The notes beneath the pieces were generated by a model that made no database searches, had not been told where the DNA came from, and was given only the letters and a program-made list of their open reading frames with translations. A stretch of DNA of 64,000 nucleotides from Diacronema lutheri. Its lineage: Eukaryota; Haptophyta; Pavlovophyceae; Pavlovales; Pavlovaceae. This document shows positions 44,233-63,871 of this stretch, in pieces. The translations under genes were made by a program, and so were the position numbers. The stretch spans positions 531,001 through 595,000 of the forward strand of contig JAGTXO010000019.1 of assembly GCA_019448385.1 (NCBI GenBank). Direction: 5' to 3'. Numbering within the stretch: the first letter of the stretch is position 1; each line of letters begins with the position of its first letter.

Positions 44233-47200
44233 ATGGGACGTGCGCGCGTGCGCGCTCGGCGCGAGATGGGCGCGGGTCTGCTCCTTCTCGCTGTCGCACG
44301 CGGTGCCGCGGTGTGCGTGGCGCGCGCGCCCGCTTCGCGCCCGCTCTTGCGCGCGCGCGCGAGCGACGCGCGTGGATCTCGCGGCCGGGGGCTCGGCATA
44401 GCGCCCGGCGCGCCGCGCTTGGCGACGATGCACGGCGGCCACCACAACGGGCACGGGCACGAGCATGACGACACTCACGACGACGAGAGTGGCGGCGGGC
44501 TTGGGGCCAACTTTTTGGCGCGCGCGCTCCGCGGCGTGTCGACGCACCGGTGGTGGGCGGCGTCGGCGGGCGAGTGGCCAGCTGTCGCGCCGGCGGGATC
44601 GGGCGGCGCGAGGACGGGCTGGCAGGCGCTTCTGCCGCACGAGGAGGACCGCGTGACCGCCCTCGGCGCTGTGCTCAACGTCCTCCTATCCGTCGTCAAG
44701 CTCGCAGCCGGCGTGTACGGCCGGTCTGCGGCGATGGTCGCCGACGCCGGCCATTCCTTCTCAGACCTCGTCTCGGACGCGATCACCTTCTGGTCGGTGC
44801 GCATGGGCAGGCTACCGCCCGACGAGGATCACCCATACGGTGCGTGCCGCTGTCGCCCCGCGCGGCGCGGGAAGGCGCATCGCCCCCTTAGCGCGGGAAG
44901 GCGCATCGCCCCCTCAGCGCGGGAAGGCGCATCGCCCCCTCAGCGCGGGAAGGCGCATCGCCCCCTCAGCGCGCGCCTCGCATCGCCCCCTCAGCGCGGG
45001 AAGGCGCATCGCCCCCTCAGCGCGGGAAGGCGCATCGCCCCCTCAGCGCGGGAAGGCGCATCGCCCCCTCAGCGCGGGAAGGCGCATCGCCCCCTCAGCG
45101 CGCGCCTCGCATCGCCCCCTCAGCGCGGGAAGGCGCATCGCCCCCTCAGCGCGGGAAGGCGCATCGCCCCCTCAGCGCGCGCCTCGCATCGCCCCCTCAG
45201 CGCGGGAAGGCGCATCGCCCCCTCAGCGCGCGCCTCGCATCGCCCCCTCAGCGCGGGAAGGCGCATCGCCCCCTCAGCGCGGGAAGGCGCATCGCCCCCT
45301 CAGCGCGCGCCTCGCATCGCCCCCTCAGCGCGGGAAGGCGCATCGCCCCCTCAGCGCGGGAAGGCGCATCGCCCCCTCAGCGCGCGCCTCGCATCGCCCC
45401 CTCAGCGCGGGAAGGCGCATCGCCCCCTCAGCGCGCGCCTCGCATCGCCCCCTCAGCGCGGGAAGGCGCATCGCCCCCTCAGCGCGGGAAGGCGCATCGC
45501 CCCCTCAGCGCGCGCCTCGCATCGCCCCCTCAGCGCGGGAAGGCGCATCGCCCCCTCAGCGCGGGAAGGCGCATCGCCCCCTCAGCGCGCGCCTCGCATC
45601 GCCCCCTCAGCGCGGGAAGGCGCATCGCCCCCTCAGCGCGGGAAGGCGCATCGCCCCCTCAGCGCGGGAAGGCGCATCGCCCCCTCAGCGCGCGCGCCTC
45701 GCCTACGGCCGGCGTCCGTCCGTAGGGCACGGGCGGTTCGAGGCGCTTGGCTCGCTGCTCATCGCGGTCATGCTCGTGGGCACGGGCTGGGCGATCGGCT
45801 CGCACGCCCTCGCGCAGGGCGCGCGCATCCTCGCCAGCCAATCCGCGTTCGCGGCCGCGCTCGCGGCGGGCGCGTCGCACGCGCACGCGCACGCCGCACA
45901 CCTCGCGCCGGGCGTCCCGGGGGTGGGCAGCCTGTGCGCGGCGGTGCTCAGCTTGGCGCTCAAGGAGTGGCTCTACCGCGTGACCGCCGCCGTCGGGCGC
46001 AAGCTCGGCTCATCCGTCGTGCTCGCCAACGCGCAGCACCACCGATCGGATGCGCTCTCCTCCATCGTGGCCTTCCTCGGCATCTGCGGCGCCATGAGCG
46101 GCGTGCCGCTCCTCGACCCGATCGCGGGCATCTCGGTCTCGGCGATGGTCGCGTACACGGGCTTCGAGGTCGCGGCAGACGCGCTGCTGCAGCTGACCGA
46201 CGCGGTCGACAAGTCCATGGCGCGCGCATCGCGAGACGCGCGCAACGCGCCGCGCGCCGCGCCGCCGGCGCGCGCCAACCGCCGCTCGCCCGACGCGCGC
46301 CGCGCCGCGCCGCGCCGCGCCGCGCCGTGCCGTGCCGCGGGGCAGGTGCGCCGCATCACGGCGATCGCGCGCGAGACCGAGGGGGTGATCGGCTGCTCGT
46401 CTGCGCGCGTGCGCTGGTCGGGCCAGCGCGTCTTCGTCGAGGCGTGCGTGCAGATCGACCCGACCATCTCGGCGTCGGCGGCCAACTCGGTGTGCGAGCG
46501 CGTGCGCCTTCGGGTGCTCGCGCGCGTGCCGCCTTCGCGCGAGGTCCTTGTCCATTGGACGCCCGTGCTCACGCCGGACGTGCAGCGCACGCACGGGGGC
46601 ACGACGCGCGCATCCGGCGCGCCGGCCGGCGACGTGCTCGGCGCGGACGACGCGGCGGCCGGCGCGGCGCGCGCGCGCGGGACGGGCGGCGTGGCCGTGT
46701 TGCCGCCACCGCCAAACTGCCCGCTGCAGCTGCACGCACGCAGGCCGCAGCGCGAGGTCGAGGCGGACGTGCGCGGAGCTGTCGAGGCGCGGTGCGGGCG
46801 CGACGTGAGCTCGATCGCGCACCTCACCGTGCACTACCTGCAGTTCGACACGGCCGTCGAAGTTGCGATCAAGGTGCGCGCGCGGCGGCGTGCGGGCGGC
46901 GTGCGCGCGCGCGCGCGCGCGCGCGCTTGGCCGCGCGCCTCGTGCCGACGCGCCGCCCATGCCGCCCGCACGCCGCCGCGCCGGCCTTGGGCAGGTGGCC
47001 GACGAGCTGACTGTGCGACAGGCGAGGCGCATTGCCGAGGCCGCGCGCCAAGCGATCGTGTCCGACGTGCGAGACGTGCGCAGCGCCGACGTGCACCTTG
47101 ACCTTCTCGACCAGAGCCCTCGCTCGATGTACTTTGGCGAGGCGGAGTCGGAGCTGGACGGTGGCGCGGGCGAGCAGGGAGGCGAGGGCGTGATGGAGCT

Positions 47201-47237
47201 GCGCGGCCCGCTGCGCGGCAGCGAATCGCGTCCTTAA
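44233..47237 (+). CDS. Cation diffusion facilitator (CDF/ZnT) metal transporter
   Basis: Four exons: 44233-44839, 45726-46219, 46346-46873 and 46995-47237, about 623 aa, all phases consistent. The start could also be ATG 44266; both give a signal-peptide-like leader. A His-rich cytosolic segment (HGGHHNGHGHEHDDTHDDE) precedes the TM domain. The CDF metal site is seen as AMVADAGHSFSDLVSDAITF (TM2) and QHHRSDALSSIVAF (TM5). Exon 1 ends in DEDHPYG and exon 2 resumes HGRFEALGSL, the conserved HPYGHGRxE motif, which fixes the intron. The cytoplasmic CTD follows (RRITAIARETEGVIGC, RVFVEACVQIDPTISASA). Intron 1 is 886 bp and contains a minisatellite. Intron 2 is best read as GC-AG (TCCATG/GCGCGCGC). 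Intron 3 is GTGCGCGCG to GGGCAG. Confidence 0.85.
44878..45703 (+). repeat. Intronic minisatellite, 32 units of 25-26 bp in two types
   Basis: Fills almost all of intron 1 of the CDF gene. Each unit has the core GCATCGCCCCCTCAGCGCG followed by either GGAAGGC (type A, 26 bp) or CGCCTC (type B, 25 bp). Order of types along the plus strand: AAAB AAAAB AAB AB AAB AAB AB AAB AAB AAAB. Units are almost identical. Every core contains a pyrimidine run followed by CAG, i.e. a splice-acceptor-like string. There are no unique spacers, so it is not a CRISPR array. Confidence 0.95.
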
Positions 47238-55498: not shown

Positions 55499-58400
55499 CT
55501 AGACGCGCCCCGTGGCCACAACCACGACCGGCAGCCCCGCCACGGACGCCGGCGAGCGGCCTTTGGCCGCAAGCCGACGGTGGCGGAAGCGCCTGATGAC
55601 GAGCACCGGCAAAATGGTGAGCAGCACGACGCCAACGAAGCCGCCGAGCACGCCACCGACAATTGCGCCAGTTCGCGCAAAGACCACACGACCTGAAATC
55701 TCACCCGAGGGTGAAAGCGTGAAGACAATCGTCTTCGTTACGCGCGGGTCGGACTCGACGGCAAAGCCGGTCTCCTGCGCGAGCGCCTCCTTAAGCCTGC
55801 GCACGACGGTTGCGTCGCGCAGCTTACCTGCAACCGACAGTGCATCAGTGTACACGCCCGTTCGCGCGTAGGCTACGAAGCTGATGAGGACAGACGCGGC
55901 AGTAACGCGCAAGACCCTCACCTCTGCATTGAGGATGCGCTCAGTGGCGCGCTCAAATGCGCCCTTCTTGTCGTCAGTCCATGTGGACACGTCGCCGCCC
56001 ATGACAATCTCGCCTTCGGTCTCCGTACGCTCGGCAAAAGCTGGGGAGAGCGGCGATGGGCTCGGCGGAGGCGGCTGCGGGCTTGGCGGCGGGCTTGGCG
56101 GCGGGCTTGGCGGCGGGCTTGGCGGTGGGCTTGGCGGCGGGCTTGGCGGCGGGCTTGGCGGCGGGCTTGGCGGCGGGCTTGGCGGCGGGCTTGGCGGCGG
56201 GCTTGGCGGCGGGCTTGGCGGCGGGCTTGGCGGCGGGCTTGGCGGCGGGCTTGGCGGCGGGCTTGGCGGTGGGCTTGGCGGTGGGCTTGGCGGCGGGCTT
56301 GGCGGCGGGCTTGGCGGCGGGCTTGGCGGCGGGCTCGGTGGCGGGCTCGGTGGCGGGCTCGGTGGCGGGCTTGGTGGCGGGCTTGGCGGCGGGCTCGGCG
56401 GCGGGCTCGGCGGCGGGCTTGGCGGCGGGCTTGGCGGCGGGCTTGGCGGCGGGCTTGGCGGCGGGCTTGGCGGCGGGCTTGGAGGCGGGCTTGGCGGTGG
56501 GCTTGGCGGTGGGCTTGGCGGTGGACTGGGTGGCGGGCTCGGCGGCGGGCTCGGCGGCGGACTCGGTGGCGGACTCGGTGGCGGGCTTGGCGGCGGGCTT
56601 GGCGGCGGCGGGCTTGGCGGCGGGCTTGGCGGCGGGCTTGGCGGCGGGCTTGGCGGCGGGCTTGGCGGCGGGCTTGGCGGCGGGCTTGGCGGTGGGCTTG
56701 GCGGCGGGCTTGGCGGCGGGCTTGGCGGCGGGCTTGGCGGCGGGCTTGGCGGCGGGCTTGGCGGCGGGCTTGGCGGTGGGCTTGGCGGCGGGCTTGGCGG
56801 CGGGCTCGGTGGCGGGCTCGGTGGCGGGCTCGGTGGCGGGCTTGGCGGCGGGCTTGGCGGCGGGCTTGGCGGCGGGCTTGGCGGCGGGCTCGGCGGCGGG
56901 CTCGGCGGCGGGCTTGGCGGCGGGCTTGGCGGTGGGCTTGGCGGTGGGCTTGGCGGTGGACTGGGTGGCGGGCTCGGTGGCGGGCTCGGTGGCGGGCTTG
57001 GTGGCGGGCTTGGCGGCGGGCTCGGCGGCGGGCTCGGTGGCGGGCTCGGTGGCGGGCTCGGTGGCGGGCTCGGTGGCGGGCTCGGTGGCGGGCTCGGTGG
57101 CGGGCTTGGCGGCGGGCTCGGTGGCGGGCTTGGCGGCGGGCTTGGCGGCGGGCTCGGTGGCGGGCTTGGCGGTGGCGGGCTCGGTGGCGGGCCCGGTGGC
57201 GGGCTCGGCGGCGGTTTTGGCGGCGGGCTCGGCGGCGGGCTTGGCGGCGGACTGGGCGGCGGGTTGGGCGGCGGAGTGGGCGGCGGGCTCGGCGGCGGGC
57301 TTGGCGGTGGGCTTGGCGGTGGGCTTGGCGGTGGGCTTGGCGGCGGTGGGCTTGGCGGCGGCGGGCTCGGCGGCGGCGGGCTCGGCGGCGGGTTTGGCGG
57401 CGGCGGGCTCGGCGGCGGGCTCGGCGGCGGGCTTGGCGGCGGGCTCGGCGGCGGGGCTGGTGGCGGGCTTGGCGGCGGGCTTGGCGGCGGGCTCGGCGGC
57501 GGGCTTGGCGGCGGGCTTGGCGGCGGAGTTGGCGGCGGGCTCGGCGGCGGGCTTGGTGGCGGGCTTGGCGGTGGGCTTGGCGGCGGTGGGCTTGGTGGCG
57601 GGCTTGGCGGCGGGCTTGGCGGTGGGCTTGGCGGCGGGGTTGGCGGCGGGCTCGGCGGTGGGCTTGGCGGCGGTGGGCTTGGCGGCGGGCTTGGCGGTGG
57701 GCTTGGCGGTGGGCTTGGCGGTGGGCTTGGCGGCGGGGTTGGCGGCGGGCTTGGCGGCGGTGAGCTTGGCGGCGGGCTCGGCGGCGGGCTCGGCGGCGGG
57801 GTTGGCGGCGGGCTCGGCGGCGGGCGTGGCGGCGAGCTGGGCGGTGGGCTTGGCGGCGGGCTCGGCGGCGGGCGTGGCGGCGGGCTGGGCGGCGGATGCG
57901 GTGGCGGGCTGGGCGGCGGGCTGGGCGGTGGGCTCGGCGGCGGACGCGGTGGCGGGCTTGGCGGCGAGCTTGGCGGCGGGCTCGGCGGCGGGCGCGGTGG
58001 CGGGCTGGGCGGCGGGCTCGGCGGCGGGCTGGGTGGTGGACGCGGTGGCGGGCTGGGCGGCGGGCTGGGCGGCGGGCTGGGCGGCGGCGAACTGGGCGGC
58101 GGGCTGGGCGGCGGGCTGGGCGGTGGCGGGCTGGGCGGCGGGCTTGGCGGGCTCGGCGGCGGGCTCGGCGGCGGGCTGGGCGGCGGGCTGGGCGGCGGGC
58201 TGGGCGGCGGGCTGGGTGGCAGGCCGGGTGGCGGGCTTGGCGGCGGGCTTGGCGGCGGGCTGGGCGGCGGCGGGCTGGGCGGCGGACTCGGCGGGCTTGG
58301 CGGTGGGTTTGGCGGTGGGCTGGGCGGCAGGCTGGGCGGCAGGCTGGGCGGCGGGCTGGGCGGTGGGCCCGGTGGTGCCGGCGGCGGGCTCGGTGGTGGC

Positions 58401-62603: not shown

Positions 62604-63815
62604 CGCCATCGCTGCGCATGACGAGGGCATAGACACGCGCCGCCATCGCTGCGCATGACGAGGGCATAGACACGCGCCGCCATGCATGACGAAGGCATAG
62701 ACACGCGCCGCCATCGCTGCGCATGACGAAGGCATAGACACGCGCCGCCATCGCTGCGCATGACGAGGGCATAGACACGCGCCGCCATGCATGACGAAGG
62801 CATAGACACGCGCCGCCATCGCTGCGCATGACGAGGGCATAGACACGCGCCGCCATCGCTGCGCATGACGAGGGCATAGACACGCGCCGCCATGCATGAC
62901 GAAGGCATAGACACGCGCCGCCATCGCTGCGCATGACGAAGGCATAGACACGCGCCGCCATCGCTGCGCATGACGAGGGCATAGACACGCGCCGCCATGC
63001 ATGACGAAGGCATAGACACGCGCCGCCATCGCTGCGCATGACGAAGGCATAGACACGCGCCGCCATCGCTGCGCATGACGAGGGCATAGACACGCGCCGC
63101 CATGCATGACGAAGGCATAGACACGCGCCGCCATCGCTGCGCATGACGAAGGCATAGACACGCGCCGCCATCGCTGCGCATGACGAGGGCATAGACACGC
63201 GCCGCCATGCATGACGAAGGCATAGACACGCGCCGCCATCGCTGCGCATGACGAAGGCATAGACACGCGCCGCCATCGCTGCGCATGACGAGGGCATAGA
63301 CACGCGCCGCCATCGCTGCGCATGACGAGGGCATAGACACGCGCCGCCATGCATGACGAAGGCATAGACACGCGCCGCCATCGCTGCGCATGACGAAGGC
63401 ATAGACACGCGCCGCCATCGCTGCGCATGACGAAGGCATAGACACGCGCCGCCATCGCTGCGCATGACGAAGGCATAGACACGCGCCGCCATCGCTGCGC
63501 ATGACGAGGGCATAGACACGCGCCGCCATCGCTGCGCATGACGAGGGCATAGACACGCGCCGCCATCGCTGCGCATGACGAGGGCATAGACACGCGCCGC
63601 CATCGCTGCGCATGACGAAGGCATAGACACGCGCCGCCATGCATGACGAAGGCATAGACACGCGCCGCCATCGCTGCGCATGACGAAGGCATAGACACGC
63701 GCCGCCATCGCTGCGCATGACGAGGGCATAGACACGCGCCGCCATCGCTGCGCATGACGAAGGCATAGACACGCGCCGCCATCGCTGCGCATGACGAAGG
63801 CATAGACACGCGCCG
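62604..63815 (-). repeat. Minisatellite of 37- and 31-bp units
   Basis: About 26 long (37-bp) and 8 short (31-bp) units. The long unit contains GCCATCGCTGCGCATGACGA and GGCATAGACACGCGCC; the short unit lacks 6 bases (CGCTGC) and is otherwise the same. The predominant higher-order pattern is long-long-short (105 bp). A second A/G variation (GACGAAGG or GACGAGGG) also alternates. Every minus-strand frame is stop-free, giving spurious ORFs over 400 codons. On the minus strand each long unit reads CGTCATGCGCAG/CGATGG, an acceptor-like string; the 6-bp loss in short units removes exactly that AG. Confidence 0.95.
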
Positions 63816-63871
63816 CCTTGCTCGCGCCCGTCGCCGCCGAAGCCGTTCGGCGCGTCGCGCAGGCCGCGCAC

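Follow-up and report, generated by a model that had tools for sequence, protein, structure and literature searches.

The first intron of a cation efflux (CDF) gene of the haptophyte Diacronema lutheri consists for the most part of a minisatellite, nearly every unit of which carries a CAG resembling a splice acceptor. This raises the question of how a single AG comes to be used among so many, and whether the array has a bearing on splicing or is an ordinary repeat that has grown within an intron. Positions are those of the window, the 64,000-nucleotide stretch of genomic DNA that was analysed, and the introns and arrays used for comparison come from the surrounding 164 kb.

Exon-intron structure of the CDF gene

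The 612-aa product of the four exons (Table 1) matches PF01545 with 129.1 bits (curated cut-off 26.6) and ZT_dimer with 68.1 bits (cut-off 26.7), and with both cut-offs exceeded the protein is assigned to the CDF family. In Pfam profile searches the exon 1 and exon 2 parts give 58.7 and 60.3 bits to PF01545 when searched separately, versus 131.4 bits (E 4.7e-38) when joined. Eight PDB matches to the spliced protein were obtained, named FieF or cation efflux protein, and in the two displayed alignments among these eight (bacterial FieF-type pumps) the junction DEDHPYG|HGRFEALG is ungapped. The sequence directly after exon 1, if 44839 is spliced to 45726, is GGCACGGGCGG.

Both ends of intron 1 were placed exactly by a home-made gene model before self-training, and again after self-training with a least intron length. 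The starting training set of the model was 16 CDF matches, two of them from the gene studied here. Self-training without a least intron length used the AGs of the array to divide it into numerous tiny introns; that run was discarded, and in its replacement introns had to be at least 45 long and splice weights were fixed. Intron 1 begins with GT and ends with AG, and taking it out leaves the frame intact and a conserved domain whole; it is accordingly classed as a spliceosomal GT-AG intron, with a donor score of 7.58 against a median of 7.57 for 28 other introns. The HPYG/HGRFE junction proposed in the initial annotation thus fits the Pfam match, the gene-model runs and the ungapped PDB alignments.

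Intron 2 is best read as a GC-AG intron. It was called an intron by one gene-model run and coding by another, and since its length is a multiple of three and its sequence is open, in-frame retention would be possible. Counted exon by exon, the genome contains 16 PF01545 matches, two of them from this gene. One CDF paralogue, L014 (C30), has an apparent intron a few residues past the matching place; a stretch of poly-C and a His-rich repeat lie downstream, and its match ends at profile position 68.

The gene model predicted 123 introns, 44 of which passed a coding-flank filter. Removal of intron 1 itself, of introns not starting with GT and of introns outside 50-500 nt left 28, all ab initio calls of which some may be wrong. 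These 28 GT introns measure 51 to 374 bp, within a filter that allowed only 50-500, and among the 43 other introns passing the coding-flank filter a single one, of 1,077 bp, is longer than intron 1, in keeping with the earlier remark that intron 1 exceeds most others in length.

Table 1. Features of the CDF gene and of its first intron (window positions)
Feature	Position	Strand	Basis or remark
Exon 1, ATG to donor	44266..44839	+	Ends HPYG, phase 1; Pfam and PDB matches
Intron 1, GT-TAG, 886 bp	44840..45725	+	Two gene-model runs; begins GTGCGTG, ends CCGTCCGTAG
Unique 5' part of intron 1	44840..44877	+	Terminal GCGCGGGAAGGCG resembles a diverged A-type unit; 91% partial match there
31 full units: a TTAG variant in first place, with 21 A of 26 bp and 9 B of 25 bp, each type uniform	44878..45674	+	TRF
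Last unit, B-like with two extra bases, continuing into unique 3' tail and used acceptor	45675..45725	+	
Candidate branch adenosine (CCTCAG), just 5' of AG-free zone	45687	+	Putative
AG-free zone of 35 nt preceding used AG	45689..45723	+	
Candidate branch adenosine (CCTACG), inside AG-free zone	45705	+	Putative
Exon 2	45726..46219	+	Opens (G)GG CAC GGG CGG TTC GAG = GHGRFE
Intron 2, GC-AG reading, 126 nt	46220..46345	+	Gene model; not certain
Exon 3	46346..46873	+	ZT_dimer domain
Intron 3, GT-AG, 121 nt	46874..46994	+	Gene model
Exon 4 to stop	46995..47237	+	Completes 612-aa spliced product

Organisation of the array

The array has 32 unit starts, the units measuring 26 or 25 bp, and is reported by TRF at 44853-45692 (period 26, 32.6 copies, score 1335), so that the description of an 886-bp intron filled by repeats stands. 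Its units are near-identical and lie head to tail, the 21 A and 9 B units showing no change within each type, as is expected of a minisatellite. A core had been claimed for every unit; exact CATCGCCCCCTCAG is present in 31 of the 32, the exception being the first, which has CTTAG instead of CTCAG. The A units carry an additional AG (GGGAAG). Beyond the used one, intron 1 contains 55 AGs, 32 of these being YAG, and AGs are 1.8 times as dense in it as in the other introns on average, a density above that of 25 of the 28. GT is absent from the array and occurs six times in intron 1, always in the unique ends; 48% of 637 26-mers taken from other introns likewise lack GT.

The units follow the order CAABAAAABAABABAABAABABAABAABAAAD. 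A string of 15 units recurs 8 units later, overlapping itself, a recurrence attained in 0.68% of 5,000 permutations and in 2.7% of 3,000 permutations with BB forbidden. The best lag match of the unit order, 0.83 at lag 8, was attained in 1.3% (5.5% with BB forbidden). That the higher-order arrangement of A and B units is real is therefore moderately supported, and growth by multi-unit duplication, put forward in the initial annotation, is likely from the recurrence and the lag match.

Acceptor likeness of the units

An acceptor matrix was built from the 28 other introns, with intron 1 excluded. The median score is 5.19 bits for held-out true acceptors and 2.18 for 131 inner AGs from the other introns. 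On this scale the used TAG reaches 4.79 bits and the CAG present in 31 units lies slightly higher at 4.93, bearing out the view that the units are acceptor-like. The second AG found in most A units reaches 4.16 bits, and the TAG of the first unit 2.43. Segments of this kind are common. Of the 637 26-mers from other introns 16% contain an AG scoring as high and 34% a YAG, and among 5,000 random 26-mers from the 164 kb the figures are 17% and 39%. A single segment with an acceptor-grade AG is thus unremarkable and tandem copying supplies the rest, and the acceptor likeness of the units is probably an incidental by-product of copying.

Acceptor choice and the branch point

For human introns, PMC1431707 describes a scanning model that takes the first AG 3' of the branch point as the acceptor, with AGs occurring at normal frequency upstream of an AG-free zone. 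A branch search zone drawn after that report, consisting of the AG-free zone and about 15 nt more, offers adenosines 45676, 45687 and 45705 as candidates. Were the branch point to lie in an upstream unit, an inner AG would be chosen. The usual branch motif requires U at -2, which is present at 45687, within the CTCAG of the last unit, and absent at 45705. A branch point at 45687 would imply that the repeat motif may equally be branch-point-like.

The initial annotation held that the splicing machinery must ignore about 32 decoys. A special burden of this sort is unsupported, since the 35-nt AG-free zone is unique to the used AG, the other AGs of intron 1 being spaced 7, 15 or 23 bases apart, and chance AGs are common. 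The decoys are nevertheless not to be dismissed, as the placement of the branch point is itself inferred. The branch-point motif yTnAy was found in 6 of the 28 introns against 4.6 expected, which is no enrichment, so that these introns lend the scanning argument no local support. AG-free zones ahead of the used AG in the same 28 introns span 4 to 179 nt, so that either the rule is loose or some intron calls are wrong. Thirteen YAG decoys, nearer the donor than the used site is, would give introns of a usual length (51-374), and intron-definition machinery might prefer them.

If several repeat CAGs were used, the transcripts would either carry inserts of varied length between HPYG and HGRFE or be frameshifted and unproductive, with copy number tuning output. 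The decoys do score on a par with the used site, 12 of the 32 YAG decoys preserve the frame and meet no stop before HGRFEALG, and an intronic minisatellite in C. elegans, CeRep25B, is linked to alternative splicing in PMC4039745. The remaining 20 shift the frame, among them the decoy closest to the used site (45688). Exon 1 joined to a repeat CAG would be followed by CGCGGGAAGG or CGCGCGCCTC. Against such usage, an insert would disrupt the conserved HPYGHGR stretch, the AG-free zone sets the last site apart, and two of three scored neighbouring intronic units lack AG altogether. We consider this arrangement very unlikely, and it is likewise very improbable that a share of the transporter transcripts is spliced to internal CAGs with repeat number determining which isoforms are made in what proportion, or how much of the RNA is unproductive.

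RNA structure was also considered as a pointer to the true acceptor and was rejected. The predicted fold of intron 1 is less stable than every one of 20 shuffles (z +6.3) and so gives no sign of a selected structure, and the used AG, with a predicted unpaired probability of 0.13 versus a mean of 0.50 for the repeat CAGs, is more paired than the decoys. An inverted repeat, CTACGG...CCGTAG (45703-45725), places the used acceptor within a predicted hairpin, which may be a chance feature.

Distribution of the repeat in the genome

A genome search for the core, proposed together with the initial annotation, was carried out over 43,492,796 bases in 103 contigs. The exact core was found at 31 places in the 43.5 Mb, every one within the array and none outside (reversed control 0), and the tail used as query gave no match in the genome beyond the array. 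With up to 3 mismatches allowed, forward matches of an 18-base core numbered 216 and reverse matches 206, compared with 72 in either orientation for the reversed control, an excess that we ascribe to base composition. With up to 2 mismatches, matches outside the array were only scattered single places, three of them on C34 at 7-11 kb from one another. No second array was seen among the core matches listed, which are complete to 2 mismatches; more diverged arrays are possible. Longer array patterns had no exact match in viral or prokaryote contigs, among which near relatives may be missing.

These searches bear on the idea that intron 1 was recently gained, or is an introner, and brought the internal repeat along. 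L011, by eye the nearest-looking CDF paralogue, lacks an intron at this position, as a gain would predict, although absence from one paralogue may equally reflect loss. Introners would be expected as similar copies in many genes, and the confinement of exact core and tail to one locus, with no dispersed copies, gives no sign of a mobile element. A recent gain of this kind we regard as very unlikely.

The array, or its copy number, could also be an error of assembly. Its units are identical, so that short reads cannot fix copy number. If the published assembly of Diacronema lutheri NIVA-4/92 (73.25% GC) is the one used here, it rests on approximately 315-fold PacBio coverage with Illumina polishing (PMC8379373); an intron of 886 bp is far below PacBio read length, and the A/B order is structured. 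Taken together these points make an artefact highly improbable. Should copy number vary, the array would be usable as a strain marker.

Other tandem arrays nearby

A census of tandem arrays in the 164 kb (unit at least 7, copies at least 4, score at least 150, overlapping rows merged) yielded 13 distinct arrays. Seven, the intron 1 array included, fall entirely or for the most part within predicted introns, one of which holds two arrays, and six are predicted coding. Periods are divisible by three in all six coding arrays and in two of the seven intronic arrays, a contrast that is supportive at most since the gene model is itself sensitive to period. Among the six array-bearing introns the coding-flank filter was passed by intron 1 and by the intron at 67163-67536, most of the others being weak calls. 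The intron 1 array is in itself an ordinary intronic minisatellite, probably with several of its kind in the genome.

Splice-site likeness differs among these arrays, as would be expected if it were incidental. A weakly called intron holds, at 66126-66218 (L050; window coordinates, 2.1 kb beyond the window), an array of 8.5 units of 11 bp, GTGCGGCTGAT, in which every unit contains a donor-like GTGCGG (the local donor being GTGCG), so that it mirrors the intron 1 array. Its host is a TPR gene with an RPAP3_C match of 20.2 bits, under the cut-off of 23. Another intronic array, in a gene with an HMG-box match, has a unit with neither AG nor GT. A 37-bp array at 62604-63817 (34 copies, higher-order periods 105 and 142) carries on the minus strand an acceptor-like GCGCAG scoring 5.62 bits per consensus unit; the gene model around it is weak, and the part searched gave no Pfam match. 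A 41-bp array at 67378-67544 (L050; window coordinates), in a minus-strand gene, extends 8 bases into a predicted exon, and its unit contains the predicted donor GTAGGAGCG. The window also contains, at 56073-58368, a very long repeat of low complexity in which a 12-bp unit recurs about 190 times; it is modelled as coding, with a GC skew of +0.41 and an AT skew of -0.85.

That the intron 1 array is itself exonic or retained, and appears as a translated tandem repeat in the protein, is scarcely credible: the exon 1 frame is open across the array into a shifted exon 2 frame (stop at residue 862) and the exon 2 frame is open across it as well, which means little where stops are rare in such GC-rich DNA, while retention would shift the frame (886 = 1 mod 3) and lose the second half of the CDF domain, the two displayed homologue alignments have no insert at the junction, and units of 25 and 26 bp are not multiples of three, unlike the periods of the predicted coding arrays.

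Probable growth of the array in place

The reading we prefer, at a probability of roughly 0.8, is that intron 1 is an ordinary spliceosomal intron lengthened in place by a minisatellite made from its own sequence, with the repeat AGs upstream of the stretch searched for an acceptor and their acceptor likeness incidental. Without units 1-31 the intron would consist of the first 38 nt and the last 51 nt, and at 89 nt would fall within the 51-374 range of the 28 others. The A units continue the left flank of the array and the B units its right flank, which points to slippage or unequal exchange, presumably between short GC-rich repeats, as the likely origin. The identity of the units and the multi-unit repeats lend moderate support to recent growth by multi-unit copying or to homogenisation; the pattern is plain, and its cause we infer. 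Splicing most likely joins 44839 to 45726 by way of a branch adenosine no more than about 50 nt from 45725, and the repeat AGs would then sit 5' of the stretch scanned for the acceptor. The acceptor likeness of the units would have been handed down from one ancestral segment.

Comparison with known systems

Intron 1 offers a compact natural test of how the spliceosome chooses one AG among some thirty equal-looking ones, set in a GC-rich genome whose introns, as far as compared here, yielded no branch-point motif. Minisatellites bearing splice sites, and repeats in algal introns, are already in print. Among the narrow set of literature matches listed, no title or opening of an abstract mentions the locus described here or a haptophyte array with an acceptor in each unit. 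One study, by its title, reportedly concerns minisatellite repeats that supply donor splice sites to a transcript. Both there and in intron 1 the repeats bring splice-site sequences, but those are donors whereas the intron 1 array carries putative acceptors.

The 31-bp VNTR of CBS, c.1444_1467+7, is similar in unit length, lies beside a splice site and varies between 16 and 21 copies (PMC2630376). By its name it spans the exon end and the donor, while the intron 1 array is wholly intronic. CeRep25B of C. elegans introns (PMC4039745) is likewise an intronic minisatellite suspected of acting on splicing, but forms a family in many genes, whereas the intron 1 array is a single locus. The intron repeats of Chlamydomonas and Volvox are also tandem arrays in algal spliceosomal introns; according to PMC3887541, introns have the highest repeat density in these two green algae and GT/AC is the top intron motif. 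D. lutheri differs from them in being a haptophyte, and its array in having a GC-rich unit of 26 or 25 bp with CAG in nearly every copy.
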